Source: Desulfurococcales archaeon (GTDB taxonomy: Archaea > Thermoproteota > Thermoprotei_A > Sulfolobales > Desulfurococcaceae). From it: DNA of 64,000 nucleotides. Positions 31,364 to 61,000 of this stretch are shown piece after piece. The translations under genes and the position numbers were made by a program. How positions within the stretch are numbered: the stretch's first letter is position 1; every line of letters starts with the position of its first letter. The DNA lies in assembly GCA_027022365.1 (NCBI GenBank), contig JALVYU010000031.1, forward strand, positions 372,001 through 436,000. The letters run 5' to 3'. The notes below the pieces were generated by a model. That model saw nothing but the letters and a program-made list of their open reading frames with translations. It did not search any database and had not been told where the DNA came from.

Positions 31364-31372
31364 GTGAATTCT

Positions 31373-31903
31373 TTGGATAATGATGTTGATAATAGCTATA
31401 AGAGGGTCTTATTACTCGTTACGAAATACGTTCTGGTAATGGTTATCGTTGCTTTGATCGTTGGCGTGGTTTATAGGGAGTATAGTAAAACGATGCTACA
31501 GGGATTGCCTCTGGAGAAGACTATTCTCGCCTCTTACTACCTCAGCTTATCGCATGGCCACATAATAGTCGTGTGCGTGGTTATACCAGTAGTGCTCCTA
31601 GTACTCACGCACCTTGTGGCGAGGACAGGGCTTGGACACCCGGACTACCGCTCGCTGAGGAGGGCATTGATAATATATCTCGTAGGGGCTACCGGTGCCG
31701 TAGCACTCCTGGTCTACAAGGGCCTGGGGATAATATACTTCTACTCACAAAACCCGTCAGCAGGCCTCACCATGGCGGACAACATGCTGTTCCTGAGGAG
31801 CCACGCACTCAGAGAATCACTGTATGGGATCATCCACCTCCTACTCGGCATAGGCCTAGCGTGGTATGCTATATCATTGCTAAGAGCGACGAGAACTAAA
31901 TAA
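31373..31903 (+). CDS. Small membrane protein, four helices, unknown
   Basis: About 176 residues with four hydrophobic segments (near 15-35, 60-80, 100-118, 150-168) and two short conserved-looking loops, SLSHGHII and FLRSHALRE. Two histidines sit in membrane-edge positions, which recalls small heme or cytochrome-linked membrane proteins, but this is not enough to name it. TTG at 31373 is preferred over the GTG at 31364 because GGTGA ends 6 nt before it. Confidence 0.7.
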   Translation: MDNDVDNSYKRVLLLVTKYVLVMVIVALIVGVVYREYSKTMLQGLPLEKTILASYYLSLSHGHIIVVCVVIPVVLLVLTHLVARTGLGHPDYRSLRRALIIYLVGATGAVALLVYKGLGIIYFYSQNPSAGLTMADNMLFLRSHALRESLYGIIHLLLGIGLAWYAISLLRATRTK

Positions 31904-33461: not shown

Positions 33462-34085
33462 TTGGTATTATCTAGTACATTGGTACGTAAGGACTTTAAG
33501 GCATCGATCGATCTGGAGGATGTTTTGGAGAAGAAGATCATGTTCTGGAGAAAGATATACTATAGAGAGAAAGAAAACAGAAGAATCAGCCCTAATACGG
33601 CACCACATCACAAGAAGCACCTCGGCTCGGCTGGTTATCCAATCAGTATCATGAGGCCAACATTTACTTTGATTGATCAAAGTGATCCCATCTATATTAG
33701 AACATACAGAATGATCGTGCGGGGAATCCTTGACTATAGCGTTTCGCTTATGAAGATACTTATGAAGGCTTCTGGCAAAAGCCTCGGGTACAGGCTTGTC
33801 GATAACGGGGATATTAGGTCGATCGATGACCTCGTCGATATATTCTTTAGACAACGGATAGGGTTACTAGACATAGTTGACGAATCAATAAATGTTATGA
33901 GGATAAACCTATACGAGTGTATGAGCTGCTACGGGACAAGATATATTGGTGTGTCACTATGTGATTTCGAGGCAGGCGTTATCGAAGGCGTTCTCGAGAG
34001 GCTATACGGTAAAAACACTACTATAGAGAAGTACTGCTGGGGACTAGGATATCATTTCTGCGGGTTCGAATCATATTTCGAGTGA
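33462..34085 (+). CDS. corQ: V4R-domain regulator, CorQ-like
   Basis: About 207 residues, TTG start. The C-terminal half is a V4R (4-vinyl reductase) domain with its Cys pattern: YECMSCYG, VSLCDFEAGVIEGVLERLYG and EKYCWGLGYHFCGFE. The N-terminal 60 residues are basic and unassigned. In Thermococcus onnurineus CorQ (V4R) with CorR (LysR-type DNA-binding domain) turns on the CO dehydrogenase/hydrogenase operon in response to CO. Here the same pair stands just before that operon, so CorQ is the likely CO or redox sensor. The homology is inferred from domain and position; the sensing ligand is not shown. Confidence 0.75.
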   Translation: MVLSSTLVRKDFKASIDLEDVLEKKIMFWRKIYYREKENRRISPNTAPHHKKHLGSAGYPISIMRPTFTLIDQSDPIYIRTYRMIVRGILDYSVSLMKILMKASGKSLGYRLVDNGDIRSIDDLVDIFFRQRIGLLDIVDESINVMRINLYECMSCYGTRYIGVSLCDFEAGVIEGVLERLYGKNTTIEKYCWGLGYHFCGFESYFE

Positions 34086-34091
34086 TAATGT

Positions 34092-35237
34092 ATGACCTGG
34101 AGATGCATGCTCATAAGGATCTCGTCTCACTGCAACGGGGGATGCATTAACTGCCCATTTGTCTCCTCGAGCTCGAAGGAGAAGCAGATACTACCATATA
34201 GGGTCTTCGAGCACTTCATAGAAGTACTGGACAGACTAGAATTCAATGAGGCTGTTTTCCTCTGCCCTAACCCACTAACAGTCCCCCATGTCGAGAAGTT
34301 TATCGAGAAAGCAGGCGAGATAGCTCGGAGAACATATATGGTTATCCCTCTGAGGGCGATCCAGGTTTTGCGTAGGAGTACCGCCGAGAATCTCGACGAG
34401 ATCTTCCTCCTAGCGACCGATAAAGCCGAGGCATCCCTGGCGGAGAAGTACTTGAAATCACTTGTTAGCCAGGGAATGGAGAACATATCTGTGTACTTGG
34501 GCGTTAGGAGGATCGAGAATCTTCTAGATAATGTCGCCAGTTTTAGGGCGATCCTTGAGAAATATAATATTAGGCTGAGGATCGGTGAGCTCCCATATAT
34601 TGACCTTAACACTCTTAAGATAACGAATTATCTGAGAATGAAGGGCTACGAGGTAGGGTTGCCGCATGGCTACATGCTGGGCTATACTGCGTCTGTATGC
34701 TTCATAGACGGCTACGCGGTCACTGTTCTCGAGAAACCAGTAACGCTTGAGTGCAGGAAGATCTATATAGACTTCTACGGCCGTGTCTCGAAGTGCCCAT
34801 ACCTTGTTGGCCGCATGAGCATGTACTTGGACGATATAGACATACGCTCCCTTAGGAGGATCATGTACTCGCGGTGCCCGATCAAGGGGAACCTAATAGA
34901 TCTCATACCTGTGATTGATATAGGGTTCCTAACAGGCGATAACAACGTGTTAATACCCAAGGATATCATCGTGTTGCTGGAGATACTCGCCAACATGCGG
35001 TCTTTTAGGCAGGCATGCGAGCTCCTAGGATATAATCCCTCAACATATATATCCAAGATAAGAGCCCTGGAGAAGAAGCTGGGATACAGGTTGATCGACT
35101 CCTACAAGGGCGGTAATAGGAGGGGCTACACGGAGCTGACGCCCCAGGCCATGAAAATCATTAAGAGATACCGTGAGCTCAGAGAACATATATCCAAGAA
35201 GCTCTTTGATGAGGGATACGTTAATTTTATGATCTAG
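34092..35237 (+). CDS. corR: CorR-like regulator: radical-SAM-like domain with C-terminal LysR/ModE-type helix-turn-helix
   Basis: 381 residues, starting 6 nt after the V4R gene. The N-terminus has CNGGCINC, a Cys-X3-Cys-X2-Cys motif in the radical-SAM position. Later cysteines (LECRKIYIDFYG, SKCPYLVG, SRCPIKG, about 215-280) resemble a SPASM-type auxiliary cluster region. Residues about 300-370 form a ModE/LysR-type winged helix: FRQACELLGYNPSTYISKI, then ALEKKLGYRLIDS. DNA binding by the C-terminal part is well supported. Whether the Fe-S part does SAM chemistry or only senses CO or redox is unknown. It probably activates the coo operon downstream. Confidence 0.72.
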   Translation: MTWRCMLIRISSHCNGGCINCPFVSSSSKEKQILPYRVFEHFIEVLDRLEFNEAVFLCPNPLTVPHVEKFIEKAGEIARRTYMVIPLRAIQVLRRSTAENLDEIFLLATDKAEASLAEKYLKSLVSQGMENISVYLGVRRIENLLDNVASFRAILEKYNIRLRIGELPYIDLNTLKITNYLRMKGYEVGLPHGYMLGYTASVCFIDGYAVTVLEKPVTLECRKIYIDFYGRVSKCPYLVGRMSMYLDDIDIRSLRRIMYSRCPIKGNLIDLIPVIDIGFLTGDNNVLIPKDIIVLLEILANMRSFRQACELLGYNPSTYISKIRALEKKLGYRLIDSYKGGNRRGYTELTPQAMKIIKRYRELREHISKKLFDEGYVNFMI

Positions 35238-35299
35238 CCGTTTTCTATGATCTAAACAATATCTTCTTGGCCGATACCCTGTCCTGCAAACACGACTCC

Positions 35300-35312
35300 A
35301 CCTTAAAACATT
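35300..35312 (+). promoter_or_regulatory. Possible promoter of the CO dehydrogenase/hydrogenase operon
   Basis: ACCTTAAAACATT sits about 40 bp before the GTG of cooF, with AAGGTG (35330-35335) as ribosome site. It is the only TATA-like element in the 105-bp gap after corR and would start the 13-kb operon. A CorR binding site is expected upstream but no clear repeat is visible. Confidence 0.35.
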
Positions 35313-35342
35313 ATTAACATAGAGTATTCAAGGTGTAGCTAG

Positions 35343-35963
35343 GTGTCGCTAAGCCCAAGTGATTATGTTATATTCATAGATCCTGCACGTTGCATGGGAT
35401 GCAGGGCCTGCGAAACAGCATGTGCTGTCGAGCACTCAGTATCTAAGAATATATTCGGCGCAGTGCTCGAGAAGCCCCTCCCCGTGCCGAGGATCAGGGT
35501 TGTAACCGTCGACGGACTCCTATACGCGCCTATGAGGTGCCAGCACTGCAGGGACGCTCCATGCATGAATGTGTGCCCGACCAAGGCAATCCACAGATCA
35601 CGTGAGGGATTCGTGGTACTTGACCCTAACAAGTGCATAGGATGCCTCATGTGCGTGCTCGCATGTCCCTTCGGCCACCCCCGATACGACCCCGACACGA
35701 AGACCGTTGTTAAATGCGACTTCTGCATCGAGAGGATAAGGAGAGGGGAGGTCCCGGCATGTGTCGAGGCCTGCCCAACAGGGGCTCTAAGGTATGGGAG
35801 GCTCGAGGAGTTCCTCGAAGAGCTGGCGGCGGCTAAGGCAAGGGAGATGGTTAGCGGTAAGCCGATGCCGGGCATAGTCGTCTATAAGCCGGTCATAGAG
35901 GCAGGAGAGACGCCTAAGCCCATGGATGTAAACTCCATGTATAAGCCCGTGTCCTGGAGGTGA
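35343..35963 (+). CDS. cooF: CooF-type four-cluster ferredoxin of CO dehydrogenase
   Basis: A 206-residue iron-sulfur protein with four Cys motifs of the DMSO-reductase/HydN/CooF type: CMGCRACETAC, CQHCRDAPCMNVC, CIGCLMCVLAC and CDFCIERIRRGEVPACVEAC. It carries electrons from CooS to the hydrogenase. The C-terminal 50 residues (after ALRYGRL) are a linker rich in Pro and Ala. It is the first gene of the operon. GTG start, with the next gene starting after the overlapping GGAGGTGA. Confidence 0.93.
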   Translation: MSLSPSDYVIFIDPARCMGCRACETACAVEHSVSKNIFGAVLEKPLPVPRIRVVTVDGLLYAPMRCQHCRDAPCMNVCPTKAIHRSREGFVVLDPNKCIGCLMCVLACPFGHPRYDPDTKTVVKCDFCIERIRRGEVPACVEACPTGALRYGRLEEFLEELAAAKAREMVSGKPMPGIVVYKPVIEAGETPKPMDVNSMYKPVSWR

Positions 35964-35971
35964 GCCTCTAC

Positions 35972-37882
35972 ATGAGTAGTAGATGGGATTATCTTAAGAG
36001 GAAAGTCCCCGCGAAACAGGTTTCCATAACCCCCGGAGTATCCGAGATGATCGAGAAGGCGGAGGAGGAGGGCGTAAAGACAGCGTGGCACAGGTATTTG
36101 GAGCAGCAGCCCCAGTGCTCGTTCGGCCTCCTCGGAATATGCTGTAGGAACTGCAACATGGGGCCGTGCAGAATAGACCCGTTCGGCTACGGCCCCCAGA
36201 GAGGTGTCTGCGGCGCGACGGCAGACACGATCGTGGCCAGGAACATCGTTAGAATGATCGCTGCCGGCGCAGCGGCCCATAGCGACCACGCCAGGGACGT
36301 CTTGAAGGTCTTTAAGCTGACGGCTGAGGGAAGGATTAAAACCTACAAGATCACTGACCCGGATAAGCTCGTCTGGCTAGCCACAGCCCTAGGGGTGGAG
36401 GTAGGGGATAGGAGGATCGAGGACATAGCCGTTGATGTAGCCAATATCCTCGAGAAAGAATTCGGGAAACAAGGCGATGAACCCCTGAGCCTCGTCAAGG
36501 CGCTCGCTCCCAAGAAGAGGCTGAAGGTATGGATGAAGGCAGGCATTGTTCCCAGGAACATTGACCGTGAGGTCTGTGAGTGTATGCATAGGACCCACAT
36601 GGGAGTGGATGCTGACCCCGTGAGTCTTCTCCTCCATGGAGCGAGGACGAGCCTCGCCGATGGCTGGAGCGGATCGATGATGGCGACACTGCTCAGCGAC
36701 ATATTGTTCGGGACGCCGAAGCCGGTCAAGTCGGTCATGAACCTCGGCGTCCTCAAGGAGGATATGGTCAATATAATTGTTCATGGCCATAACCCCATAC
36801 TCTCCATGAAGATCGTTGAGACCGCGATGAGGGACGATATACAGGAGTACGCCAGGAAATACGGTGCGAAAGGAGTAAATGTTGCGGGAATGTGCTGTAC
36901 AGGGAACGAGGTGCTCATGAGGCTGGGCGTCCCGATCGCCGGTAACATGCTGATGCAGGAACTAGCAATAATAACCGGCGCCGTCGAAGCCATAATCGTC
37001 GACTACCAGTGCGTGATGCCGGCCATCGTAGACGTGGCCGGGTGCTACCATACAAAGATCATAACCACCGAGCCCAAGATGCACATACCGGGCGCAGTAC
37101 ACGTCGAGTTCGAGCCGGAGCACGCCGACGAGATAGCAGAGAAAATCGTCAAGATAGCTATCGAGAACTACCCGAACAGGAGCAGGGAACGCGTACGTAT
37201 CCCGAAGCACAAGGTAGAAGTCGTCGCCGGGTTCAGCGTCGAGGCAATAGTCGAGGCCCTCGGAGGAACCCTGGATCCTCTCGTCGACGCCCTGAGGAAC
37301 GGCACGATCAAGGGTATTGTAGGCATAGTCGGGTGCGTCAACCCCAAGGTCAAGCACAACTACAGCCACGTAGTGCTCGCCAAGAAGCTGATCGCTAACG
37401 ACATACTCGTTGTCGGAACGGGCTGCTGGTCCATAGCCGCGGGTATACATGGGCTATTATCTCCGAGCGCCGCCGAGATCGCGGGTCCGGGCCTCAGAAA
37501 GATATGTGAAGCCCTCAAGATACCGCCGTGCCTACACATGGGAAGCTGCGTTGACTGCTCAAGAATACTCATAGCATTAAAAGCCCTCGCGGAGGCACTC
37601 GGGGTAGACATAGCGGATCTCCCCGCCGCGGGCTCGGCCCCCGAGTGGATGAGCGAGAAAGCAGTAAGTATAGGGACATACTTCGTAGCGTCAGGCCTAC
37701 TCGTACACCTAGGGACGATACCGCCCGTAATGGGCAGTAAAAAGGTGACAAAGCTCCTGACGGAGGACATAGAAGACGTCGTAGGAGGCAGGTTCTACGT
37801 AGAGCCCGATCCCGAGAAAGCGGCGGACACTATAATCGAGGTAATAAGGGAAAAGAGGAGAAGACTAGGGTGGCCGGTCTAG
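35972..37882 (+). CDS. cooS: Ni-Fe-S carbon monoxide dehydrogenase catalytic subunit
   Basis: About 636 residues. It oxidises CO + H2O to CO2, two electrons and protons. The D/B-cluster cysteines lie in QCSFGLLGICCRNCNMGPC and GVCGATAD (about residues 47-85). C-cluster ligands are visible: His in VHGHNPILS (about 269), Cys in GMCCTGNEVL (about 307), GCVNPK (about 454), GTGCWSIAAG (about 483) and MGSCVDCSR (about 526). It is the monofunctional CooS type, not the acetyl-CoA synthase subunit. The frame is open to a GTG at 35960, but GGAGGTGA favours the ATG at 35972. Confidence 0.96.
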   Translation: MSSRWDYLKRKVPAKQVSITPGVSEMIEKAEEEGVKTAWHRYLEQQPQCSFGLLGICCRNCNMGPCRIDPFGYGPQRGVCGATADTIVARNIVRMIAAGAAAHSDHARDVLKVFKLTAEGRIKTYKITDPDKLVWLATALGVEVGDRRIEDIAVDVANILEKEFGKQGDEPLSLVKALAPKKRLKVWMKAGIVPRNIDREVCECMHRTHMGVDADPVSLLLHGARTSLADGWSGSMMATLLSDILFGTPKPVKSVMNLGVLKEDMVNIIVHGHNPILSMKIVETAMRDDIQEYARKYGAKGVNVAGMCCTGNEVLMRLGVPIAGNMLMQELAIITGAVEAIIVDYQCVMPAIVDVAGCYHTKIITTEPKMHIPGAVHVEFEPEHADEIAEKIVKIAIENYPNRSRERVRIPKHKVEVVAGFSVEAIVEALGGTLDPLVDALRNGTIKGIVGIVGCVNPKVKHNYSHVVLAKKLIANDILVVGTGCWSIAAGIHGLLSPSAAEIAGPGLRKICEALKIPPCLHMGSCVDCSRILIALKALAEALGVDIADLPAAGSAPEWMSEKAVSIGTYFVASGLLVHLGTIPPVMGSKKVTKLLTEDIEDVVGGRFYVEPDPEKAADTIIEVIREKRRRLGWPV

Positions 37883-37929: not shown

Positions 37930-38727
37930 ATGAAAATTCTTGTATCGGGGAAGGGCGGCGTCGGGAAAACCTCAATATCAGCTATGCTCTCACTGATTTT
38001 TTCCCGTAACGGCTACAACGTACTAGCCCTCGACACAGACTCAGTGCCCAATCTCGCGTCGAGCCTAGGTATACCTATAGGTGAAGCAGAGAAAATTGTG
38101 CCGCTGGCGAAGAACGATAAGCTCGCAGAGGAGAGGACGGGTGCCAGGCCGGGAGAGGGCTGGGGCATACTCTTCTCACTAACGCCTAGTGTAGACGATA
38201 TAGCCGACAAGTACGGAGTTAAGATCAATGATAGATTGAAGCTGGTGGTCGTTGGAAGCATAGATATGAGCAAAGAAGGATGCCTATGCCCTGCAATAGC
38301 CCTGGCCAAGGCATTTCTAATACACGTAATGACGCGTAGCCGTGAGGTCATCATTGTAGACGCAGAAGCGGGAGCAGAGGTGTTCGGCAGAGGACTCGCT
38401 GAGAAATTCGACCTAAACATCACGGTCTCCGAGCCCACCATTAAATCACTGGTAATTGCTAGAAAACTCATTAGAATGGCTGACGAGCTTGGTATCAGGA
38501 ATAATATCTTGGTTGTAAACAAGGTCACCGATGAACTCACGGTCGCCCGTTCTATCAAGAAGGTATTCAATTATGAAAGAGTTGATTATCACATCGTCCG
38601 GTACGACCCTGAAGTTATGAAGCTGGAAATGCTTGGAGAAGGCCTAGATAAATTGGGTCCCAACTCAATATTTTTTAAGGACGTCCATTCTCTATATGAG
38701 AAAATCCTCAAATTAAAGAGGAAGTAA
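37930..38727 (+). CDS. cooC: CooC nickel-insertion ATPase
   Basis: A 265-residue ParA/MinD-type ATPase that loads nickel into the C-cluster of CooS. It has the deviant P-loop SGKGGVGKTS (residues 6-15), LALDTDSVPNLASSLG, and the Cys-X-Cys nickel motif GCLCPAIALAKA (about residue 117). It lies 47 nt after cooS. Confidence 0.94.
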   Translation: MKILVSGKGGVGKTSISAMLSLIFSRNGYNVLALDTDSVPNLASSLGIPIGEAEKIVPLAKNDKLAEERTGARPGEGWGILFSLTPSVDDIADKYGVKINDRLKLVVVGSIDMSKEGCLCPAIALAKAFLIHVMTRSREVIIVDAEAGAEVFGRGLAEKFDLNITVSEPTIKSLVIARKLIRMADELGIRNNILVVNKVTDELTVARSIKKVFNYERVDYHIVRYDPEVMKLEMLGEGLDKLGPNSIFFKDVHSLYEKILKLKRK

Positions 38728-38966: not shown

Positions 38967-40898
38967 ATGACTTTACTCCAATATGTTTTTCTCCTCCCAA
39001 TAATTTTCCTGTCCGTATCAACTGTTTCAACATTTTACATAAGAGGAAGAACGGCGTCGATCATATCCTCAATACTATCACTCGCGGCATGCCTCTCTAT
39101 GTTGTTTTTATCAATCAATGTTTTTCTATACTCTAAGACGTACAGGTATGATTTTATTTACTGGCCGTTTCCCTCCCGCACTATGAACGGTTTTGCAGTA
39201 TTCAGGATCAGAATAGATGCGTTATCGGCTTACTTCATATTCATAATCGGCTTAATAGGAGCTATAGCCACGATCTACGGTTTAAAATACATAAACAAGT
39301 ACTCGACCGAGCACATGGGGTTTTTCTCGCTTAACTACTCGCTCTTCATTCTTTCAATGTACATGGCCGTCATCGTATCGGATCTATTCTGGTTTATAGT
39401 GTTCTGGGAATTAATGACGCTATCGTCACAGTTCCTAGTATCTTTCGAGAAGGAGAAGAAGAGAGCTATTTGGGCGGGATACAAGTATTTTACAGTGACC
39501 AAGATCGGGTCGGAGTTCATCATTATCGGGTCACTGATAGCGGTCTTTGTATTGAATAACTTCAATACCTCCTTTAGAAGCATCTCCATAAATGCCGCGG
39601 AGCCTCTGGGGTTCATAACGGTTTTACTAATGTTCATAGGCCTCGCGGTGAAGGCCGCAGTAGTGCCTTTTCACACATGGCTGCCGGACGCCCATCCCGA
39701 AGCACCATCCCATGTCTCGGCACTTCTCAGCGGGGTCATGATCAAGATCCCTATTTACATGATGATTAGATTATTCTACGAATTCACTGCTCCAGGGCTT
39801 GTTTGGGGCATTATAGTCTCTACAATTGGGGCCGCTACACTTACGGTAGGGACTATGTATGCTTTAAAACAGACTGACTCGAAGAGGCTTCTAGCGTATC
39901 ATAGTGTCGGGCAGATCGGGTACATTGTGCTGGGGCTCGGCGCATCTCTCCTACTGGTTTCTCTAAAAGACTACCTATTGGCCGGCGTAGCCCTGATCGC
40001 CTGCCTCTACCATCTAGTCAACCACGCGTTGTTCAAGTCCGCATTATTCCTTACAGCAGGCTCTGTCGAGTATGCTACTGGTCTCCGCGACCTGAACAGG
40101 CTGGGCGGGCTAGCCAGGTATATGCCCTACACCGCTCTAGCAGCCCTTATAGCTTCATTATCTATCTCGGGCATACCCCCGTTCAACGGGTTCGTGAGCA
40201 AGTGGCTAGTATATTGTTCCACGTTCTTGGCTGGAGGATTGTTATTGGTTTATGGAGTGCTCGCACTCTTTATAAGCTCGGTAACCTCGGCGAGCTTCAT
40301 AAAATTCTTTACAACAATGTTTACGAGGGAGGCCTCGAGGATCAATGCATCGGGGGTCAGGGAAGTCCCTCGTTCTATGAGCTCTTCCCAACTAGTATTA
40401 GGTATTCTATGTATTGTGTTCGGGGTATTCCCGCTGGTACCGCTCAGCCTTATTTTACCGGTGCTGGGTGTTGAAGCACCACACATCTATGATGTTATCG
40501 GCAGATCGGTCTCTATCAACATAGGCTATATAGGTATCGGGTCGTCTGCACACTTCTATCCACTAGTGATCGCTGTGATACTCTCTGCTTTCCTGCCTCT
40601 CATCTATGTCGTGGTGGTCAAGGGGGCGGATGCCAGGTATGAGCCGTGGACGTGTGGATCGCTTGTCGAGAAGAGGAAGTTATTGTATCCGGCTAGATCC
40701 TACTATAAGGACTTCGAGGAAGTTTTCGGGGAGATATATTCTGTGGGCGATTATTTCTATAAGATGATCGTAGGGATCATCCCGCGGAGGGTTTACTCTG
40801 CTTTCAAGCGTTTTGTAGGTCTGGCTGAGGATCCCGTGGTCATGTACATGGTGATGCTGGCCATCATCGTGATCGCACTGCTTGTGATGGGTGTTTAG
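38967..40898 (+). CDS. Antiporter-like membrane subunit of the group 4 hydrogenase (NuoL/HyfB/CooM type)
   Basis: A 643-residue subunit with about 14-16 membrane helices. It has the Proton_antipo_M pattern: WLPDAHPEAPSHVSALLSG (TM7/8), the Lys-containing KAAVVPFHTW, LLAYHSVGQIGYIVLGLG and HALFKSALFLTAGSVEYATG. The cytoplasmic C-terminal part is like that of CooM/HycC. It would couple electron transfer to ion movement. First of the hydrogenase genes. Confidence 0.9.
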   Translation: MTLLQYVFLLPIIFLSVSTVSTFYIRGRTASIISSILSLAACLSMLFLSINVFLYSKTYRYDFIYWPFPSRTMNGFAVFRIRIDALSAYFIFIIGLIGAIATIYGLKYINKYSTEHMGFFSLNYSLFILSMYMAVIVSDLFWFIVFWELMTLSSQFLVSFEKEKKRAIWAGYKYFTVTKIGSEFIIIGSLIAVFVLNNFNTSFRSISINAAEPLGFITVLLMFIGLAVKAAVVPFHTWLPDAHPEAPSHVSALLSGVMIKIPIYMMIRLFYEFTAPGLVWGIIVSTIGAATLTVGTMYALKQTDSKRLLAYHSVGQIGYIVLGLGASLLLVSLKDYLLAGVALIACLYHLVNHALFKSALFLTAGSVEYATGLRDLNRLGGLARYMPYTALAALIASLSISGIPPFNGFVSKWLVYCSTFLAGGLLLVYGVLALFISSVTSASFIKFFTTMFTREASRINASGVREVPRSMSSSQLVLGILCIVFGVFPLVPLSLILPVLGVEAPHIYDVIGRSVSINIGYIGIGSSAHFYPLVIAVILSAFLPLIYVVVVKGADARYEPWTCGSLVEKRKLLYPARSYYKDFEEVFGEIYSVGDYFYKMIVGIIPRRVYSAFKRFVGLAEDPVVMYMVMLAIIVIALLVMGV

Positions 40899-40900
40899 CC

Positions 40901-41794
40901 GTGGTGTGGCTCAATACTCTCTATGGTGTACTTAATGCCTGCTTCATATTATTGGTGGGCCCACTCATAGACGGCGTTGAGAGGAAGATCCGTGCAAGGC
41001 TCCAGAACAGGAGGGGGCCCTCGATACTGCAGACATGGTATGACCTAGTAAAGCTGCTTAGAAAACCCGCTGCCAGAACAGGTGTTCCCTCAACGCTTTT
41101 CAGGTTATCCGTCTACATAGGATTTGTAAACCTATTGATAGTCTCGCTTTTCATCCCCTCGATACTCTGCGGCGGTATGGGTTTCTTCGGTGACCTGATC
41201 CTCTTCATATACCTTTTATCGTCTTCCAAGGTATTCGTCCTAATAGGGAGCTACAGCTCCGGTAGCCCTTACGCCTCGATAGGCTCTACTAGGGAAGTAT
41301 CGCTGAGCATGGCGTCGGAGCTGGTGCTGGCCGAGATAATTGCGCTGATCGCTCTGTCCAGGAGCAGTCTTTTACTGAGCAATGTTTTCCCTGTTACAGC
41401 GGTTTTGAGGCCATCGGTTCTCATCGGGCTGGGAGTACTGGGTATTATAGTCTATATCGAGCACTCTAGATTACCCTTCGAAATCGGTGAGGCCGAGCCC
41501 GAGCTCGCCGGGGGATACACCATAGAGTATGCTGGCAGAGACCTAGGATTCATCCTATGGTCGAACACTATAAGGAGAACACTACTGACGACTTTCCTGA
41601 TAGACCTGATTATCCCGCTCGACGTATTATACCACCTGGTCATCTACCCCGTCCTCTTGTTCTCGATAATGATTGTTTTCACAGCTATCGAGACTGGTTG
41701 GGGAAGGCTCAGGATAGATATCTCCCTCAAATACGTCAAGAGGTTAAGCTATGTCATGTGGGGTGTGATCCTGCTTGCGCTCATCGGGTATTAA
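40901..41794 (+). CDS. NuoH/HycD/CooK-type membrane subunit of the hydrogenase
   Basis: A 297-residue subunit with eight helices. It has the NuoH signature: GVERKIRARLQNRRGPSILQ, the loop YASIGSTREVSLSMASELVL, and the acidic SRLPFEIGEAEPELAGGYTI. It links the hydrogenase module to the antiporter-like subunit. The GTG start follows the previous stop by 2 nt. Confidence 0.92.
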   Translation: MVWLNTLYGVLNACFILLVGPLIDGVERKIRARLQNRRGPSILQTWYDLVKLLRKPAARTGVPSTLFRLSVYIGFVNLLIVSLFIPSILCGGMGFFGDLILFIYLLSSSKVFVLIGSYSSGSPYASIGSTREVSLSMASELVLAEIIALIALSRSSLLLSNVFPVTAVLRPSVLIGLGVLGIIVYIEHSRLPFEIGEAEPELAGGYTIEYAGRDLGFILWSNTIRRTLLTTFLIDLIIPLDVLYHLVIYPVLLFSIMIVFTAIETGWGRLRIDISLKYVKRLSYVMWGVILLALIGY

Positions 41795-41798
41795 TCAA

Positions 41799-43481
41799 GT
41801 GAGGCCCAGGAACAAGTACGAGCTCATGATTGATCTGAGGCGCTTCGGCGAGCCCCGTCTCAGGGGTAAGTACTTGTTTCTATCCAGGATAAAGAGCGGT
41901 AGATTAAGGGATCTAGTTGATTATCTCCACTGGAGGCTAGGGGGATATTATTCGACATCCATAGGCGTTGATGAGAGGCCTCTTGACGGTTACTTCCACG
42001 TCTACCACGTCTTCGTCCTTGAAGAATACGGGGTGTACGTACTGGTTGATCTCATCGCCGACCCCGGGCATCCCGTCGTCGAATCAATAACTCCCGTTGT
42101 ACCCGCCGCTAATTGGGCTGAGAGGGAGATAATGGATTTTATAGGGGTCAAGTTCAGAGGGCACCCCGAACCCCATAGGCTCATACTTCCTGATGACTGG
42201 CCTGAAAACGTCTACCCGTTGAGAAAGGATTACCCGTACGATGACAAGCTCCCTACAAGCGATAAAATAGCTAAGCTTGTACGCGAATCCTCGCCAGCTA
42301 CATGGGAACCTGAAGCCCCTGGGGATCATACCGTTATACCGGTTGGCCCTTATCACCCAGCCCTCCACGAGCCCGAGTACTTCGAGCTATTCGTTGAGGG
42401 CGAGAAGATTGTTGATGCTAGGTATAAGGGCTTCATGGTTCACAGGGGGATCGAGAAGATCGCCGAGTCCAGGCTATCATACAACCAAGTGTCTTTCATA
42501 GCGGAGAGAATCTGCGGTATCTGCGGCTTCACGCACAGTACTGCGTACTGCCAGGCCGTGGAGGAAGCAGCGGGGATCGATGTGCCTGAGAGAGCGGAGT
42601 ATATTAGGAGCATACTCCTCGAGATCGAGAGGATCCATAGCCACTTCCTATGGATGGGCGTCGCCTTCCACCTCCTAGGCTACGATACAGGCTTCATGAT
42701 AATGTGGAGGCTGCGCGAAAGCATCATGGATCTAGCCGAGGAACTGACGGGGAGCAGGAAGATGTATGGAGCGAACATCGTCGGAGGGATCAGGGATAAA
42801 TGGGATATCAGGGACGATAAAGCGGCCTTGATCAAGAGAATGCTGGACGAGATAAGGGAGGAATACCTGAAGTACATCCCAAAGATCATTTCCCTGGAGG
42901 AGATCAAGAAGAGGACACGGGGAGTAGGAGTATTATCGAGGAGCGATGCAAGGAAGTACAGCGTCCTCGGCCCACACGCAAGGGCGTCCGGGATAAAAAC
43001 AGATGTACGCAAGTACAGGCCATACGCCGCCTACAAGTACGTCAACGTCGAGATCCCAGTACTAGATGACGGAGACATATACGCGAGAATGATTGTCAGG
43101 CACGAGGAGATCCTGGCATCAATCGATCTAATACATAGGCTTCTAGACAATATCCCTAAAACCCCCCTCCACGCCGACACCAGCTATATCCCTGAGAGAA
43201 GACATGGGATCGGGTGCACCGAGGCCCCGCGGGGCGAGGACCTGCACTTCGTCATAACCGGGAGGGACAACAAGCTCTATAGGTGGAGGCCTAGGGCCCC
43301 GACATATAATAATCTCCTATCAGTCCCAGCCATGCTCCGCGGGGAATACCTCGCGGACGCACCAATAATAATTGCAAGCATAGACCCGTGTTTCTCCTGC
43401 ACAGACCACGTCGTAGTCGTAGACCTTAGATCCGGTAGGAGGAGGCCCTTGAGAACAAGAGGAGTTGTAGGGGGGCGGTGA
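41799..43481 (+). CDS. Fused NuoC-NuoD type hydrogenase large subunit (HycE-like)
   Basis: About 560 residues. The first 150 are a NuoC/CooU-like domain (HPVVESITPVVPAANWAERE), the rest the [NiFe] large subunit. Nickel ligands are present: RICGICGFTHSTAYC (L1) and SIDPCFSCTDH (L2). These are the two CxxC pairs of an active group 4 hydrogenase, not of complex I. The fusion is as in HycE of formate hydrogenlyase. A 20-residue extension follows the last Cys motif and could be cut off on maturation. The frame is open to 41775; GTG 41799 lies just after the upstream stop. Confidence 0.93.
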   Translation: MRPRNKYELMIDLRRFGEPRLRGKYLFLSRIKSGRLRDLVDYLHWRLGGYYSTSIGVDERPLDGYFHVYHVFVLEEYGVYVLVDLIADPGHPVVESITPVVPAANWAEREIMDFIGVKFRGHPEPHRLILPDDWPENVYPLRKDYPYDDKLPTSDKIAKLVRESSPATWEPEAPGDHTVIPVGPYHPALHEPEYFELFVEGEKIVDARYKGFMVHRGIEKIAESRLSYNQVSFIAERICGICGFTHSTAYCQAVEEAAGIDVPERAEYIRSILLEIERIHSHFLWMGVAFHLLGYDTGFMIMWRLRESIMDLAEELTGSRKMYGANIVGGIRDKWDIRDDKAALIKRMLDEIREEYLKYIPKIISLEEIKKRTRGVGVLSRSDARKYSVLGPHARASGIKTDVRKYRPYAAYKYVNVEIPVLDDGDIYARMIVRHEEILASIDLIHRLLDNIPKTPLHADTSYIPERRHGIGCTEAPRGEDLHFVITGRDNKLYRWRPRAPTYNNLLSVPAMLRGEYLADAPIIIASIDPCFSCTDHVVVVDLRSGRRRPLRTRGVVGGR

Positions 43482-43484
43482 TAA

Positions 43485-43988
43485 ATGAACAGGATCAAGG
43501 TGCTCCTCGAAAATCTTAGAAGAGGAGTCGTGACGGAGCAATACCCCTTCAAGCCCATCAGAGTCCCGGAGAGGCTGAGGGGCAAACCAGTAATAGACCC
43601 TGATAAGTGCGCTGGCTGCGGGGCATGCGTTAATGCATGTCCTCCAAACGCGCTTACAATGCGTGACGATAAGCACAGCTCGATGAGGTTCATAGTGTTA
43701 TTCATTGGTCGATGCATCTACTGCGGGAAATGCGAGGAGGCCTGCCCGTTCGGCGCTATAAGGCTTACAAGGGAGTTCGAGCTGGCCGCTGAGAATAGGG
43801 AGGACCTCTACCAAGTGGTAGGGCTGAGACTGTATCACTGCCCATTGTGCGGCGAGCCCTTCACGACTGTGAGGCTGATCAAGAGGGTCGTGGAGGCCCT
43901 GCCCGAGGAGCAGAGGGCAGCGGCCACCTTATGTCCCAGATGCCGCGAATCAGTTACGGCCCACTACAGGAGCTATGCCCGGAGGTAG
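43485..43988 (+). CDS. Hydrogenase ferredoxin subunit (NuoI/HycF/CooX type) with C-terminal Cys pairs
   Basis: A 167-residue subunit with two [4Fe-4S] motifs, CAGCGACVNACPPN and CIYCGKCEEACPFG. A C-terminal pair of CxxC motifs, YHCPLCGEPFTT and LCPRCRES, can bind a zinc ribbon or rubredoxin-like iron. It passes electrons to the small subunit. The 3-nt gap to the large subunit gene shows tight coupling. Confidence 0.92.
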   Translation: MNRIKVLLENLRRGVVTEQYPFKPIRVPERLRGKPVIDPDKCAGCGACVNACPPNALTMRDDKHSSMRFIVLFIGRCIYCGKCEEACPFGAIRLTREFELAAENREDLYQVVGLRLYHCPLCGEPFTTVRLIKRVVEALPEEQRAAATLCPRCRESVTAHYRSYARR

Positions 43989-43994
43989 GTATCC

Positions 43995-44573
43995 GTGAAA
44001 CTGTATCGGAGGAGCCTATGGGTCTTCCACCTGAACAGCGGGAGCTGTAATGGGTGTGATATAGAGATACTCAACGCCCTAGCCCCTAGACAGGACGCTG
44101 AGAGGCTGGGCGTAAAGCTTGTCGGGTCGCCGAGACACGCGGACGCAATACTTTTCACCGGCCCGGTCACGAGGGAAGCCCTGCCCAGTGTTGTCAGAGC
44201 CATTCAGGCGGTGCCGGAGCCGAAGATCGTCTTGGCCGTGGGCGCGTGTGCCTGTGGGGGAGGTATCTGGCACGACAGCTACTGTGTCCTAGGGGGGATA
44301 CAGGGGCTCTACAGGGTATTGAAGAGCATGGGTGTAGCGCCTCCGAAGACGATCTATGTGCCTGGATGCCCCCCTAAGCCCGAGGCGATAATTCACGGCA
44401 TAATGCTGGCCAGGGGGCTTGCGGGACAGAGGCAGGCTAGATCCGAGTACTTCGAGGAGCAGGGCCCGGCGGTGAAGGCCGAGGAGGATCTCCACAGGTT
44501 ATTCCATAAGTGCTTCCCGGGACGCCTGCCGCCTAAGACCGCCCGGGTCGAGTGGGGGGTGACACGCTATTGA
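43995..44573 (+). CDS. Hydrogenase small subunit (NuoB/HycG/CooL type)
   Basis: A 192-residue subunit holding the proximal [4Fe-4S] cluster: GSCNGCDIEILNA, AVGACACGGGIWH and VPGCPPKPEAIIHG are the family cysteines. GTG start. The C-terminal 40 residues are extra to the minimal fold. It forms the catalytic dimer with the large subunit. Confidence 0.93.
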   Translation: MKLYRRSLWVFHLNSGSCNGCDIEILNALAPRQDAERLGVKLVGSPRHADAILFTGPVTREALPSVVRAIQAVPEPKIVLAVGACACGGGIWHDSYCVLGGIQGLYRVLKSMGVAPPKTIYVPGCPPKPEAIIHGIMLARGLAGQRQARSEYFEEQGPAVKAEEDLHRLFHKCFPGRLPPKTARVEWGVTRY

Positions 44574-44854
44574 ATACTAGCTGGTTCTTGTCGTTGTACA
44601 TACCGGTTATCACCTGTGTCTTCATAGCGGCGATAACGCTGTACATGTACAGGATACTCCGGGGCCCGACGATACCCGACATGGTGCTGGGTATCGACTG
44701 TATGAGCTACGACCTAGCCGTCTTTATAGCACTGGTATCGCTGTACTACGATACGTCCTTCCTCATCATAGGCTCCCTCATGATCTCTCTATGGGCGTTC
44801 ATGTTCGACGTATACATCTCGAAGTACTACTTGAAGAAGGAGCTGGGTGATTAG
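44570..44854 (+). CDS. mnhF: MrpF/MnhF-type antiporter subunit
   Basis: 94 residues, three helices. MrpF signature: YRILRGPTIPDMVLGIDCMSYD. It starts with TTG at 44570, overlapping the stop of the small subunit, behind GGGGGTGA at 44554-44561. First of seven Mrp-like genes that add a Na+/H+ antiporter module. Confidence 0.85.
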   Translation: MNTSWFLSLYIPVITCVFIAAITLYMYRILRGPTIPDMVLGIDCMSYDLAVFIALVSLYYDTSFLIIGSLMISLWAFMFDVYISKYYLKKELGD

Positions 44855-44855
44855 A

Positions 44856-45230
44856 ATGCTCGGCGAGATAATTCAGCAGATAGTGTTCGGTATAGGTGTG
44901 TGCCTAGTAACCATTGGCGCCGTATTCGATCTATTGGCGGCGCTCGGCCTGGTGAGGTTCCCGTGCTTCTACGTCAGAATGCATGCGGCGACCATAGGGG
45001 TTATAGGCGGGGCCGTCGTCCCCCTGATCGGCGTCTCCCTCATCAGCCTCGTCTCCGACCAGCTCGGCCCCTACAGGTTCATGTTTGCGGGTATATCGTT
45101 CTTCACGGCACTGCTGATAATGATCACGGCCCCCGTCGGGACGCACATACTCGCCAACGCTGCACATAAGCTGGATCTATCGCCTAAGGAACCCATTATA
45201 GTTGATAAGATGGGGGAGGATAAGCGTTGA
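44856..45230 (+). CDS. mnhG: MrpG/MnhG-type antiporter subunit
   Basis: About 124 residues, three helices. MrpG signature: LLAALGLVRFPCFYVRMHAA and TAPVGTHILANAAHK. The ATG at 44856 lies behind GGGTGA; the frame is open 9 nt further up. Gap to mnhF is one base. Confidence 0.87.
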   Translation: MLGEIIQQIVFGIGVCLVTIGAVFDLLAALGLVRFPCFYVRMHAATIGVIGGAVVPLIGVSLISLVSDQLGPYRFMFAGISFFTALLIMITAPVGTHILANAAHKLDLSPKEPIIVDKMGEDKR

Positions 45231-45475
45231 TCTATCCGTTGCTACTCCTATGCTTCTTCTCGACGGCGGGGATGATCTCGTCGTACCTGGCTATACGAGA
45301 GAAGGACTTGCTGAGGGCGATAGCGTTGTCGGCTGTCCAGTCAGTAGCATTCGCCCTGCTCTACGCGGTGCTGCTAGCACCCGATATACTCCTCGTGTAC
45401 CTCGCGGTCGGCCTCGGGATATACCCGATCATACTCATCTATACAGTAAAGAAGACGAGGAGGTATGAGGAATGA
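45227..45475 (+). CDS. DUF4040/MbhD-type antiporter subunit (MrpA C-terminal-like)
   Basis: 82 residues, three helices. EKDLLRAIALSAVQSVAFALL and LLAPDILLVYLAVGLG match the MbhD/DUF4040 piece related to the MrpA C-terminus. TTG start, overlapping mnhG and the next gene by 4 nt each. Confidence 0.8.
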   Translation: MIYPLLLLCFFSTAGMISSYLAIREKDLLRAIALSAVQSVAFALLYAVLLAPDILLVYLAVGLGIYPIILIYTVKKTRRYEE

Positions 45476-46269
45476 GGAGGGGCATCTCTAGGTCTTCACT
45501 AGTGATAGTCTCGCTCGCACTAGCTCTCTCACTGATACTCGTCTACTTCGCGGCGATGGGAGGCCTAGGCGGCCACCCCTCCGCATCAATAGTGGGCATA
45601 GGCCAGTTCATAGTAAACAACACGTACAACGTGTTTAACAGAACATACTGGGCAGGGAGCCCGGAGGCGGTGACGTCCATTATATGGGATTACAGGGGCT
45701 TCGACACCATTTTCGAGACAACCGTGCTCTTCGCGGCGGTTATGGCGGCCCTCCTCCTAGTCCCCGGAGGCATCAGGGGCCGCATACAAGGGTCTGGAAA
45801 GGACGAGGGGTTGACACTGATTGTTAAGACGGCTTCGAAGATAATATCGTGTATAGTGGTCGTCCTAGCGCTGAACCTGGCCCTGAGGGGATACATATCT
45901 CCCGGAGGAGGCTTCGCGGGCGGCTCATCCTACGCTATAGCCCCGCTGCTTCTGATCGCCGGGTTATCGGTTTTCTACCTTGTACGGCTGGGGTACAGGT
46001 TGTCCCGCGCCATCGGTCTCAGAACCCTTGGGCTGGTGGGCCTAGTTGTTGTTTCGTCCCTACCGCTGCTCTACATGGGCTACATTATCCAGAACCAGGC
46101 AAAGCCCGGCTCGATGTTCCCGGGCTACCCTGTTTTCCTGGGCCCGCTCTACCTCGGCGGATCCCTTATCTACATGAATGTCTTCGAGTTCCTCGTCGTC
46201 TCGATGGAGTTCATCATAATATTCATAGCGATGTTCCTGCTCGACAGGGGGTGTGGCGGCAGTGCTTAG
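45472..46269 (+). CDS. mnhB: MrpB/MnhB-type antiporter subunit with MbhE-like N-terminus
   Basis: 265 residues. The N-terminal 105 residues are MbhE-like (VTSIIWDYRGFDTIFETTVLF); the remainder is MnhB (YISPGGGFAGGSSYAIAPLL). In Mbh complexes these are two genes, here one. It belongs to the membrane antiporter module. Confidence 0.87.
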   Translation: MRRGISRSSLVIVSLALALSLILVYFAAMGGLGGHPSASIVGIGQFIVNNTYNVFNRTYWAGSPEAVTSIIWDYRGFDTIFETTVLFAAVMAALLLVPGGIRGRIQGSGKDEGLTLIVKTASKIISCIVVVLALNLALRGYISPGGGFAGGSSYAIAPLLLIAGLSVFYLVRLGYRLSRAIGLRTLGLVGLVVVSSLPLLYMGYIIQNQAKPGSMFPGYPVFLGPLYLGGSLIYMNVFEFLVVSMEFIIIFIAMFLLDRGCGGSA

Positions 46270-46663
46270 CTGGATACTGGTCTTGTACGTCTACCTTACA
46301 CTCTTCGTGACGGGCGGCATCGCGGTTTACGGAGTTGTCGCGAAGAGGAATATAGTTAAGAAGATCATTGCCCTGACGATCTTTAACGACGCCGTAAACA
46401 CGGTAGCGATATTTATAGGATACCGCTTAATACCCCGCCCGCTCCCACCGATCATGCCAACGATCCATCCTAATAGGCAGATCTACTCGGCATTCATATC
46501 GTCATCGGTTGATCCCCTCCCCCAAGCACTCGTAATAACGGCCATAGTAATAGGTGTAGCCGTCACATGCTTCCTCGCGTTCCTCGCCATAAGGCTCTAT
46601 GATAGGTTCGGCACGACGGATTACCAGGAGATTAAGAGGCTGGTCAGAGGTGGTAAGAGATGA
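46253..46663 (+). CDS. mnhC: MrpC/MnhC-type antiporter subunit (NuoK-like)
   Basis: 136 residues, three helices: VAKRNIVKKIIALTIFNDAV and PLPQALVITAIVIGVAVTCF follow the MnhC/NuoK pattern. It overlaps the end of mnhB by 17 nt, with a GTG start. Confidence 0.87.
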   Translation: MAAVLSWILVLYVYLTLFVTGGIAVYGVVAKRNIVKKIIALTIFNDAVNTVAIFIGYRLIPRPLPPIMPTIHPNRQIYSAFISSSVDPLPQALVITAIVIGVAVTCFLAFLAIRLYDRFGTTDYQEIKRLVRGGKR

Positions 46664-47148
46664 GGAGATACATTGTCTTGTTCATATTCTACTTCATAAT
46701 CTACTTGTTGCTCTCAGGGGGAACATACTTCACGGACGTCTTCTTCGCCGCCGTAGTTGCCGCCATAGCCTCGGCTCTCACCGCTAAGCTGCTGGTGAGG
46801 AACGAGGAGAAGCTCGAGCTACGCCGCTTATATTACCTACTAAAGTATTTCTTCAGGTACATGCTCGTCGATGAGATCCGTGCACACATCGATGTCGCGC
46901 GCCGTGTATTGACGGGGGAGATCAGGCCTGGCATTGTAGCGGTTCCCTACTATGTCGGCTCCGACTACGCGAAGACATTGATCGCGAACTCTATAACCAA
47001 TACTCCTGGAACCGTCGTGGTCGGCATAGATGATCGTGAGAAGCTCATGTATGTTCACTGGATCGACGTGAAGGCCCTAGATCCCTCTACGTGCAGGATG
47101 TATATCTCGAGGGTGTTCGAGGAATACGCTATGAAAATATTTGAGTAG
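46660..47148 (+). CDS. mnhE: MrpE/MnhE-type antiporter subunit
   Basis: 162 residues, one or two N-terminal helices and a soluble tail. The MnhE motifs IRPGIVAVPYY and LIANSITNTPGTVVV are clear. It overlaps mnhC by 4 nt. Confidence 0.88.
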   Translation: MRRYIVLFIFYFIIYLLLSGGTYFTDVFFAAVVAAIASALTAKLLVRNEEKLELRRLYYLLKYFFRYMLVDEIRAHIDVARRVLTGEIRPGIVAVPYYVGSDYAKTLIANSITNTPGTVVVGIDDREKLMYVHWIDVKALDPSTCRMYISRVFEEYAMKIFE

Positions 47149-47162
47149 GTGGTGCGTTAGAC

Positions 47163-48725
47163 ATGGTTCCGGCTGTAGACCCGTTACTAGGCCTGGTCGT
47201 GCTCGTACTTGCCCTCGGGGGATTCACGACCCCCCTGATAAGCCGTCTGTCAAGGAATAGATACGCCGTGAGGACGTACCCGCTGATATACTGTGCCGCG
47301 TCATTGGCGATGGCATCGCTGATCATGGAGCATGTATGGGTGGCTGGAGAGCCTGTCGTCTACCTGCTCGGCGGCTGGAGGCCGCCGGTCGGGATACTCT
47401 ATATTGCTGACGGGCTCAGCGCCTTGCTCGGCGTCGTAACCTCGCTGGTTATGCTCCTCATAATGATATATAGTACGGGATATCTCGAGGGCTCCGGGAG
47501 AGAATACACCTACTATTCCCTGATGCTCCTCCTCGAGGCGGGGATGCTTGGATGCATTTACACGGGCGACGTCTTCCATCTCTTCGTCATGCTGGAGGTG
47601 ACCAGCCTGTCCGCGTACGCGCTGGTAGCGTATATCCGTGACAAGCGCGAGGCCCTCTACGCGTCCTACAAGTACGCCATCTACGGCGGCCTCGCCACGA
47701 CAATATATTTCCTGGCGGTGCTGTTCATCTATGGGGGCGTGGGATCCCTCACGATAGGGGATATACATTTGAGGATGGCCGCCTACATGTCCCGGTACGC
47801 TAGGCCGGTCTTCCTGTGCGGGCTCGTATTCACTATCCTCAGCTTCACCGCGTTCCTCTACAAGGCGGCCGTCTTCCCCCTCCACTTCTGGCTCCCCGAC
47901 GCCCATCCGGAGGCGCCGTCTCCTGTATCGGCGGCCCTCTCCGGCCTCGTCGTCAATATAGGTGTCTACGGGATCGTTAGGTTCGCCTACACAATATACC
48001 ATGGCCTCCCCGACCCCGGACTATACAGTTTATCCCTCATGATCACAGGGGGGCTCGGGTGCCTGTCAAGCCTTGTCGGGGCGGTATTGATGGCCAGCTA
48101 TAAGGATGTTAAGAGGATAATAGCCAGCAGCACGATCATGAACATAGGGTTCATGATGATGGGGTACTCGACGGGTTCACCGCTAGGCATAGCCGCCTCA
48201 ACACTCCACCTAATGAACCACTCGTTCGCCAAGAGCCTCGCGTTCCTCTCAAGCGGCGTCCTCATCAAGTCAGCGGGATCAAGGGTTCTCGAGAGGCTCC
48301 GGGGGCTCGGCCGGGCACTGAGGTATGCCGGGATCCCGTTCGCCATATCCCTCCTCTCACTAGCCGGCGTACCGCTCTTCAACGTGTTCGTGAGCGAGTA
48401 CTTGCTGGCAGCATCCTTCATCCACACCGGGAAATGGGTGTTCCTCTGCTTCTTCATGGCATCCTACATCATAAGCACGATCGTCTACCTGAGGATACTC
48501 TACGAAGTATGCCTAAAGACCCCCGCCGCCCCCACAACCCATAGAAGCGGCAGGGAATGGATCCCCGTCGCCGCCATGCTCACCGCCCTATCAATAACCT
48601 GTATAATCACAGGAATACTCAGCGGATACATAATAAGCAAAATAATCATGCCGGCAAGCCAGTGTCTCTACACAAACACAGAATACCTAGAAACAGTGAA
48701 AAAATACCTACTAAACATACACTGA
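47163..48725 (+). CDS. mnhD: MrpD/MnhD-type antiporter subunit
   Basis: 520 residues, about 14 helices. Proton_antipo_M motifs: LHFWLPDAHPEAPSPVSAAL, KAAVFPLHFW, ASYKDVKRIIASSTIMNIGF and HSFAKSLAFLSSG. Last gene of the 13-kb run. With the MrpB, C, E, F, G-like subunits it would exchange Na+ for H+ using the gradient built by the hydrogenase. Confidence 0.92.
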   Translation: MVPAVDPLLGLVVLVLALGGFTTPLISRLSRNRYAVRTYPLIYCAASLAMASLIMEHVWVAGEPVVYLLGGWRPPVGILYIADGLSALLGVVTSLVMLLIMIYSTGYLEGSGREYTYYSLMLLLEAGMLGCIYTGDVFHLFVMLEVTSLSAYALVAYIRDKREALYASYKYAIYGGLATTIYFLAVLFIYGGVGSLTIGDIHLRMAAYMSRYARPVFLCGLVFTILSFTAFLYKAAVFPLHFWLPDAHPEAPSPVSAALSGLVVNIGVYGIVRFAYTIYHGLPDPGLYSLSLMITGGLGCLSSLVGAVLMASYKDVKRIIASSTIMNIGFMMMGYSTGSPLGIAASTLHLMNHSFAKSLAFLSSGVLIKSAGSRVLERLRGLGRALRYAGIPFAISLLSLAGVPLFNVFVSEYLLAASFIHTGKWVFLCFFMASYIISTIVYLRILYEVCLKTPAAPTTHRSGREWIPVAAMLTALSITCIITGILSGYIISKIIMPASQCLYTNTEYLETVKKYLLNIH

Positions 48726-50213: not shown

Positions 50214-50672
50214 GTGTATAGATCGAATGCATTAACAAACATATTCTATACCATTATCAATAAGAAGGACTATGTTAATGCATTGAATCAGCTTAGAAAT
50301 ATACAAGTTTATGGAACAACCATGACTTCTTATCGTAAGATCCATTCACTAATTACGGATGTCGTCGATAAGGTATTATCGTTTGAGCAAGCAGGACAAG
50401 GATCAAGTATTACTAACGAGAAGGTTTCTATGATTGTTTCGGAGTTAGTGAGAGTCTCGCTCCTTGTACTGTATCAGATGAGGCGTGGATTGATTAATCG
50501 AACAGTGGCAGAAGGTTTGCACAGTATTTTAAACACCATTACGTCTACCCTCCAGAATTACCTTAGGAGCAGGGATTCAAAGTATATTGAGCTTGCAAAG
50601 AAACAGGTTGATGCATTAAAGATCATTATTGACGGTATACTGGCACTCCATTATGAAAAATTCAAGAAATAA
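50214..50672 (+). CDS. csm2: Csm2 (Cas11) small subunit of type III-A
   Basis: 152 residues, all-helical, with the Csm2-type pattern (VSELVRVSLLVLYQMRRG, the C-terminal KQVDALKIIIDGILALHY). GTG start after GGTGG. It begins the operon csm2-csm3-csm4-csm5-cas10. The family is assigned by position and helical fold, because Csm2 is poorly conserved. Confidence 0.72.
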   Translation: MYRSNALTNIFYTIINKKDYVNALNQLRNIQVYGTTMTSYRKIHSLITDVVDKVLSFEQAGQGSSITNEKVSMIVSELVRVSLLVLYQMRRGLINRTVAEGLHSILNTITSTLQNYLRSRDSKYIELAKKQVDALKIIIDGILALHYEKFKK

Positions 50673-50691
50673 GGAGGAGGTGGTAGGTATC

Positions 50692-51654: not shown

Positions 51655-51671
51655 GGGGGAGCCTAAAGGAA

Positions 51672-52730: not shown

Positions 52731-52740
52731 GTGTTACTCC

Positions 52741-53931: not shown

Positions 53932-53945
53932 AACGGTGAGCAGTA

Positions 53946-60646: not shown

Positions 60647-61000
60647 CCTCCAGTTTATTCTTGTTTGTCTCTCGGATAAACACCACCACGTACCCCTTGA
60701 TCAATAATCCGGTGCTCAACCTCTTTCAGTTCTATTTGTTTGTTTCATACCCATGACTTTCAGTTTTCTTTGTTTGTATCGATCACGCTTTGAATACCTT
60801 TCTTACGGGCGTATTCCCAGAACTCATAGCTTTCAGTTATTTGTATTTGTTTCCCTTCAAATCCCGACTACTGGGCGAATAATCCCGAATACGAAGAGAT
60901 AATCTTTCAGTTTTTTGTGTTTGTTTCTGGATGGTTCTCAATTAGCTTCTGGAACGAATACAAGTATATCATCATCCTTTCAGTTCTTTTTGTTTGTTTC
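60647..61000 (-). CRISPR. Short CRISPR array, six degenerate 24-nt repeats
   Basis: Repeats on the plus strand read CTTTCAGTTCTTTTTGTTTG+TTTC (consensus), at 60977-61000, 60904-60927, 60830-60853, 60757-60780, 60723-60746 and a poor one at 60647-60671. On the minus strand the repeat ends GAACTGAAAG, the usual 5' tag for Desulfurococcales/Sulfolobales arrays, so transcription is leftward and the leader lies at 61001 and beyond. Spacers are 49, 50, 49, 10 and 51 nt. Repeats vary at the middle T-rich positions. The most degenerate repeat is at the far end, as expected. Confidence 0.8.

Follow-up and report, generated by a model that had tools for sequence, protein, structure and literature searches.

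A CorR-like regulator with a radical-SAM-derived cysteine domain upstream of an archaeal CO dehydrogenase operon

Why does a protein with a DNA-binding domain, encoded directly upstream of a CO dehydrogenase (CODH) operon in a Desulfurococcales archaeon, carry the cysteines of a radical-SAM enzyme? The reading that we prefer, and to which we give a probability of about one half, is that this protein is the CorR-like factor of a CorQ/CorR pair and controls the CODH–energy-converting hydrogenase (ECH)–Mrp operon by means of a radical-SAM-derived Fe–S domain.

Locus, domain make-up and radical-SAM ancestry

Within the window (the whole stretch of 64,000 nucleotides analysed here), a V4R gene and corR sit directly upstream of a CODH/ECH/Mrp operon that starts with cooF. 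Six bases separate the end of the V4R gene from the start of corR. The features, by window position, are:

33462–34085, + strand: CorQ-like partner, a V4R-domain protein of 207 aa (Pfam V4R, E 1e-10)
34092–35237, + strand: CorR-like regulator, an intact ORF of 381 aa (radical-SAM-derived domain, twitch-like cysteine patch and LysR/ModE-type winged helix)
34131–34154, + strand: site A, CX3CX2C (C14, C18 and C21), from the homologue alignment
34263–34274, + strand: C58-P-N-P at the position of the radical-SAM GGEP motif; C58 is the proposed fourth ligand of site A
34737–34889, + strand: site B, a twitch/SPASM-like patch (C221, C235 and C262), from the profile and homologue alignments
34944–35234, + strand: winged helix, residues ~285–381
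35288–35294, + strand: AAACACG, proximal operator half-site, the only half-site of the tripartite operator recognizable in the window
35303–35317, + strand: cooF promoter, A+T-rich stretch resembling a TATA box (by eye)
35343–35963, + strand: CooF-like 4Fe–4S ferredoxin-type protein (Pfam Fer4_11, E 1.6e-26)
35960–37882, + strand: CooS, Ni–CO dehydrogenase (Pfam Prismane/CODH, E 9.6e-190)
37930–38727, + strand: CooC-like P-loop ATPase (Pfam CbiA/ArsA/ParA, and position)
38967–48725, + strand: ECH and Mrp-type antiporter genes (ORFs, subunits named by eye), the putative regulated operon

Elsewhere in the window, a DUF2871 protein (Pfam, E 4e-7) is encoded upstream of the regulator pair at 31364–31903, and by eye the regions 50214–56855 and 61146–62057 resemble a type III CRISPR effector set (with a 969-aa HD-domain, Cas10-like protein) and a Cas6-like protein.

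The order V4R gene, HTH regulator, CODH cluster is that of CorQR. In the usage of Kim et al. (2015), CorQ is reportedly the V4R half of the pair and CorR the HTH half; excerpts of PMC6557876 give the two domain names in reverse, relative to that usage. According to excerpts of the published accounts, Thermococcus onnurineus CorQR is a CO-responsive activator of the CODH cluster (PMC4791640, PMC6557876), mutants in corQ and corR exist for this species (PMC4791640, Table 2), a transcriptional regulator lies within the TON_1016–1031 cluster (PMC2718504), and TON_1017–1031, which the window CODH/ECH/Mrp genes resemble, is assumed to be one transcription unit (PMC4731540). Judged by gene order and descriptions, the likeness extends to the regulators, a V4R protein and a LysR-type HTH protein beside a CODH–ECH–Mrp cluster (PMC6557876); unlike the window protein, the T. 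onnurineus pair is described, as far as these excerpts go, with no mention of a radical-SAM-like domain.

The C-terminal winged helix of the CorR-like ORF agrees with the original prediction of a LysR/ModE-type fusion. Pfam HTH_1 matches residues 295–353 (E 5.2e-7, above cut-off), and NCBIfam ModE_repress matches residues 290–370 (E 6e-7, below its own cut-off). An ordinary LysR regulator was rejected, given that the HTH is C-terminal, not N-terminal, and that Pfam finds no LysR substrate-binding domain in the ORF. Three ModE/PBP_like regulators (L040, L041 and L042) were likewise rejected as kin, having the same HTH and a different sensor. Nor is the fusion a misassembly, because the same fusion occurs at 17 loci from 17 genomes, one per genome.

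Single-model searches see the N-terminal region faintly: Pfam Radical_SAM matches residues 9–83 (E 0.068, below cut-off), NCBIfam TIGR04167 (ArsS) and TIGR04317 (tungsten-cofactor oxidoreductase maturase) match weakly below their cut-offs, and Pfam SPASM gives a weak match in one homologue only (E 0.43). A sensor profile, built from 15 sequences over the first 280 window residues, was compared using hhalign with 18 radical-SAM ORFs of the window’s own genome (from 20 loci, of which two lacked a clean ORF; Pfam marked 30 places in total). Five of the 18 scored 89, 88, 79, 71 and 42% probability, the other 13 at most 16%; 18 reversed sequences reached no more than 2.9%, and 36 other ORFs of the window no more than 1.9%. 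Against a profile of four radical-SAM sequences the probability rose to 96.5% (E 8e-10, 154–255 columns). Those four were the best single matches, a choice that inflates the figure, but the controls show the signal to be specific. In the profile alignment, C14, C18 and C21 fall on CX3CX2C, C58-P-N-P falls on G-G-E-P, and E-C221...K-C235-P falls on the Y-C...P-C stretch of the SPASM region.

Solved structures add little: phmmer with the CorR-like query found no match among them, and the best profile match (7wzv_A, a ‘4Fe-4S cluster-binding domain-containing protein’, E 0.038) is too weak alone. An AlphaFold2 model built from two near-identical sequences only (the window protein and L003, 93%) is unusable (pLDDT 45.9, pTM 0.35); at that low confidence it alternates strands and helices in an order compatible with repeated β–α units. 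The profile comparisons thus support the predicted radical-SAM-like domain, with residues 1 to ~265 appearing to derive from a radical-SAM enzyme that had a twitch/SPASM-type C-terminal patch.

Distribution and the V4R partner

A scan of genome contigs found a 93% identical copy of the regulator in one Desulfurococcales MAG. Two genome samples, a draw of 398 across the phylum and a draw of 397 relatives searched with the sensor-domain alignment, yielded another 16 CorR-like loci that are complete or almost so; the window brings the total to 17. Among the 397 genomes, 15 encode a close CooS (at least 69% identity), and 14 of these have the regulator (E below 1e-16); the remaining one, G517, is 56% complete. 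The regulator was found in none of the 27 genomes whose only CooS is below 65% identity, where no sensor match was better than 1e-10. A search of plasmids found no relative.

At 14 of the 17 loci the CorR-like gene immediately precedes cooF and shares its strand (cooF of G177 read by eye). The three exceptions differ in kind. In G467 the distance is ~3 kb, with intervening ORFs; in G456 the corQ–corR pair is divergent from cooF; and the G111 copy (L084:8686–10272, − strand) is not at a CODH locus. This last protein, of 528 aa, has site A and C58, lacks the twitch cysteines and bears a C-terminal extension. Its gene adjoins a formate dehydrogenase/ECH cluster (formate dehydrogenase named by eye), so CO is not necessarily the signal, and the family as a whole is not restricted to CO; CorR-like proteins may serve formate-hydrogenlyase loci too.

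The window’s genome also encodes a 377-aa paralogue (L043:7683–8816, + strand; ~471682–472815 of contig C31, the contig of the window) with a ModE_repress match (E 2e-10), no CX3CX2C and no C58. It adjoins a second ECH cluster and is followed by a second CooS, 43% identical, with CooF and Mrp-like genes (L110, C31:481937–483736). This second CODH/ECH set may be under the control of the paralogue.

The V4R partner, which the original prediction did not include, is encoded next to the CorR-like gene at 12 of the 17 loci. Its cysteines C153, C156, C167, C192 and C200 are invariant in the five CorQ-like sequences aligned. The NCBIfam model for the C-terminal region of MsvR also matches it (E 1.2e-11), well short of that model’s cut-off. 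The V4R half of MsvR, a methanogen regulator, resembles CorQ; MsvR carries its own HTH, whereas CorQ here matches V4R alone and the HTH sits on CorR. Viral contigs scanned with the CorQ alignment gave no match.

These features give body to an alternative in which the sensing of CO or redox falls to CorQ, and the radical-SAM-like part of CorR, with structural cysteines (Fe–S or zinc), serves CorQ as a docking scaffold. Besides the adjacency and the invariant cysteines, it can draw on MsvR, whose V4R cysteines influence redox-dependent DNA binding according to excerpts of PMC3729527, and on G456, which keeps CorQ although its CorR lacks site A. The regulator loci with no V4R gene beside them point the other way. 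No V4R protein was detected in G454 (93% complete) or G005 (85%), and in G241, G199 and G111 the V4R genes lie elsewhere in the genome; site A is retained at these CorQ-less loci, with the exception of C14, missing in L037. A sensor borne purely by CorQ is disfavoured by G454 and G005, which hint that CorR is able to act in the absence of CorQ, and we regard the docking-scaffold explanation as possible but rather doubtful.

Two cysteine sites and the lost SAM motifs

The reading in which the radical-SAM-derived domain of CorR itself takes part in sensing draws on the pattern of its cysteines. The 15 aligned homologues share 17–97% mutual identity (17–51% between lineages). Four sequences of the g25 group are 79–97% alike and L038 and L039 81%, so the 15 represent about 11 independent lineages. 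Outside this alignment stand L003/L004, which come from a single MAG and are 93% identical to the window; G456, which lacks site A and is truncated by its contig; and the L043 paralogue.

The N-terminal CX3CX2C of the original prediction is present at residues 14–21, and its cysteines prove to be conserved in homologues, as that prediction required, though not evenly: C21 in 15/15, C14 in 14/15 (Phe in L037) and C18 in 10/15, with His in the four g25 relatives (CX3HX2C) and CX2CX3C in one sequence. All three cysteines at CX3CX2C spacing occur in nine of the 15. The later, SPASM-like cysteines also foreseen correspond to C221, C235 and C262, each found in 13/15; the profile alignment places them within or close to the SPASM region of bona fide radical-SAM proteins. 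What had not been foreseen is C58. It replaces the first Gly of GGEP, with GGE gone, in every aligned homologue, and is present in 16 of 17 once L003/L004 and G456 are counted in.

The patterns of loss relate C58 to one site rather than the other. The G456 protein (L083:1–1609, − strand), whose paired V4R gene retains its cysteines, is a natural site-A deletion: C14, C18, C21 and C58 are all missing, and the equivalents of C221, C235 and C262 are kept. L036 and L084 have lost site B and keep C14, C18, C21 and C58. C58 thus tracks the N-terminal triad, not the twitch patch, and from this we infer that it completes site A as a fourth ligand; the single co-loss event in G456 is suggestive of such a role, not proof. 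C14, C18, C21 and C58 would then hold a [4Fe–4S] cluster, with Cys58 standing in for SAM. As G456 lacks site A yet has the same operon, site A is not essential everywhere.

Might the cysteines instead bind zinc or another metal and make the protein a sensor of metal supply, such as that of nickel for CODH? The g25 group, with His in place of Cys at position 18, would fit, Cys/His exchange being common in zinc sites, but the spacing and surroundings match a radical-SAM Fe–S site in the profile alignment, and we think this explanation unlikely.

SAM chemistry, doubted from the start, shows signs of loss. Just ahead of the third cysteine the 15 homologues have N, G, T, S, D, I or P, never an aromatic residue; the 18 radical-SAM ORFs of the window’s genome always have F, Y, W or H there (L091 has two CX3CX2C motifs, of which the second was scored). 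An exact GGE or GWGEP is seen in just nine of those 18 ORFs, so the absence of GGE is by itself a weak sign and does not exclude SAM; the distinctive feature is the invariant Cys, found at this position in 0/18 by eye. The nearest enzymes, those of the SPASM/twitch type (best models TIGR04167 and TIGR04317, both weak), share the CX3CX2C spacing, the register of the GGEP strand and SPASM-like C-terminal cysteines, and differ from the window protein in its CPNP, the missing aromatic, the winged-helix fusion and the position of a CODH regulator. From these motifs, SAM chemistry has probably been lost in the CorR-like protein. That it remains a radical-SAM enzyme despite its unusual motifs, SAM being the sensed ligand or substrate, is very improbable: the complete CX3CX2C in nine of 15, the twitch-like patch in 13 of 15 and the GGE-less half of the 18 radical-SAM ORFs would allow it, but the Cys at the SAM-contacting corner and the non-aromatic residue, each in all 15, and the CX3HX2C of four relatives argue against it.

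Operator and proposed mechanism

Also beyond the original prediction, several relatives have a tripartite operator, GAACACG-N11-CGTGTTC-N8-GAACACG, before the cooF TATA box, and it is nearly unique in their genomes. The g25 group has GAACACG-N11-CGTGTTC-N8-GATCACG upstream of cooF, followed by a TATA-like stretch. L033, L079 and L080 show the same elements at equal or near-equal spacing, with a score unreached in 300 shuffles each, although the pattern had been loosened after L080 was inspected and the shuffles are therefore not an independent test. Sites in G467 and G517, inspected only after the motif was fixed, read GAACACG-N11-CGTGTTC and CGTGTTC-N8-GAACACG. Genome searches covered 12 genomes, namely G517 and 11 of the 17 regulator holders (without G177, G005, G241, G199, G456 and G111). 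GAAYACG-N11-SGTRTTC occurred at six distinct places, four of them cooF promoters (none for the reversed-pattern control), and SGTRTTC-N8-GAWYACG at seven, six of them cooF promoters (one for the control).

The operator is less clear elsewhere. At the window’s own cooF promoter the best tripartite fit was equalled by 11 of 300 shuffles, the cooF promoter of G454 has no convincing operator (33 of 300 shuffles as good), and L037–L039 have other inverted repeats upstream (by eye). An exact N11 match at window 60792–60816 (432792–432816 of contig C31), away from the CODH operon, is probably due to chance.

How might such a protein work? We propose that the SAM-contacting GGEP became C-P-N-P, SAM chemistry probably being gone, and that Cys14, Cys18, Cys21 and Cys58 would hold a [4Fe–4S] cluster with Cys58 at the SAM-binding corner; Cys221, Cys235 and Cys262 would hold a second, dispensable cluster. 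The signal would be CO binding or a redox change at the unusual corner of site A, or would be relayed by CorQ. A sensor borne purely by CorR is disfavoured, because G456 has lost site A and retains CorQ and the operon. The signal would shift how a winged-helix dimer is seated on the operator that immediately precedes the cooF TATA box, and the shifted dimer would switch the operon on, making CorR a putative activator rather than a repressor.

Other regulators that likewise control CO-oxidation genes, CooA, RcoM and CoxC, have heme or MHYT sensors, and we know of no radical-SAM-derived domain in any of them. A literature search, which covered few subscription journals, found no description of a radical-SAM-derived DNA-binding regulator like the CorR-like protein. 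With two defined cysteine sites in CorR, the question of how the heme-free archaeal CorQR perceives CO becomes testable by mutating a few residues, and the cooF operator offers a direct binding assay. If true, the proposal would clearly exemplify how a radical-SAM fold can be put to use in a DNA-binding sensor. More tentatively, and short of calling it probable, we suggest that in archaea of this phylum a radical-SAM enzyme may have become a transcription factor when an invariant cysteine closed the open iron corner, turning a catalytic [4Fe–4S] cluster into a gas or redox sensor that directly controls CO-driven hydrogen production.
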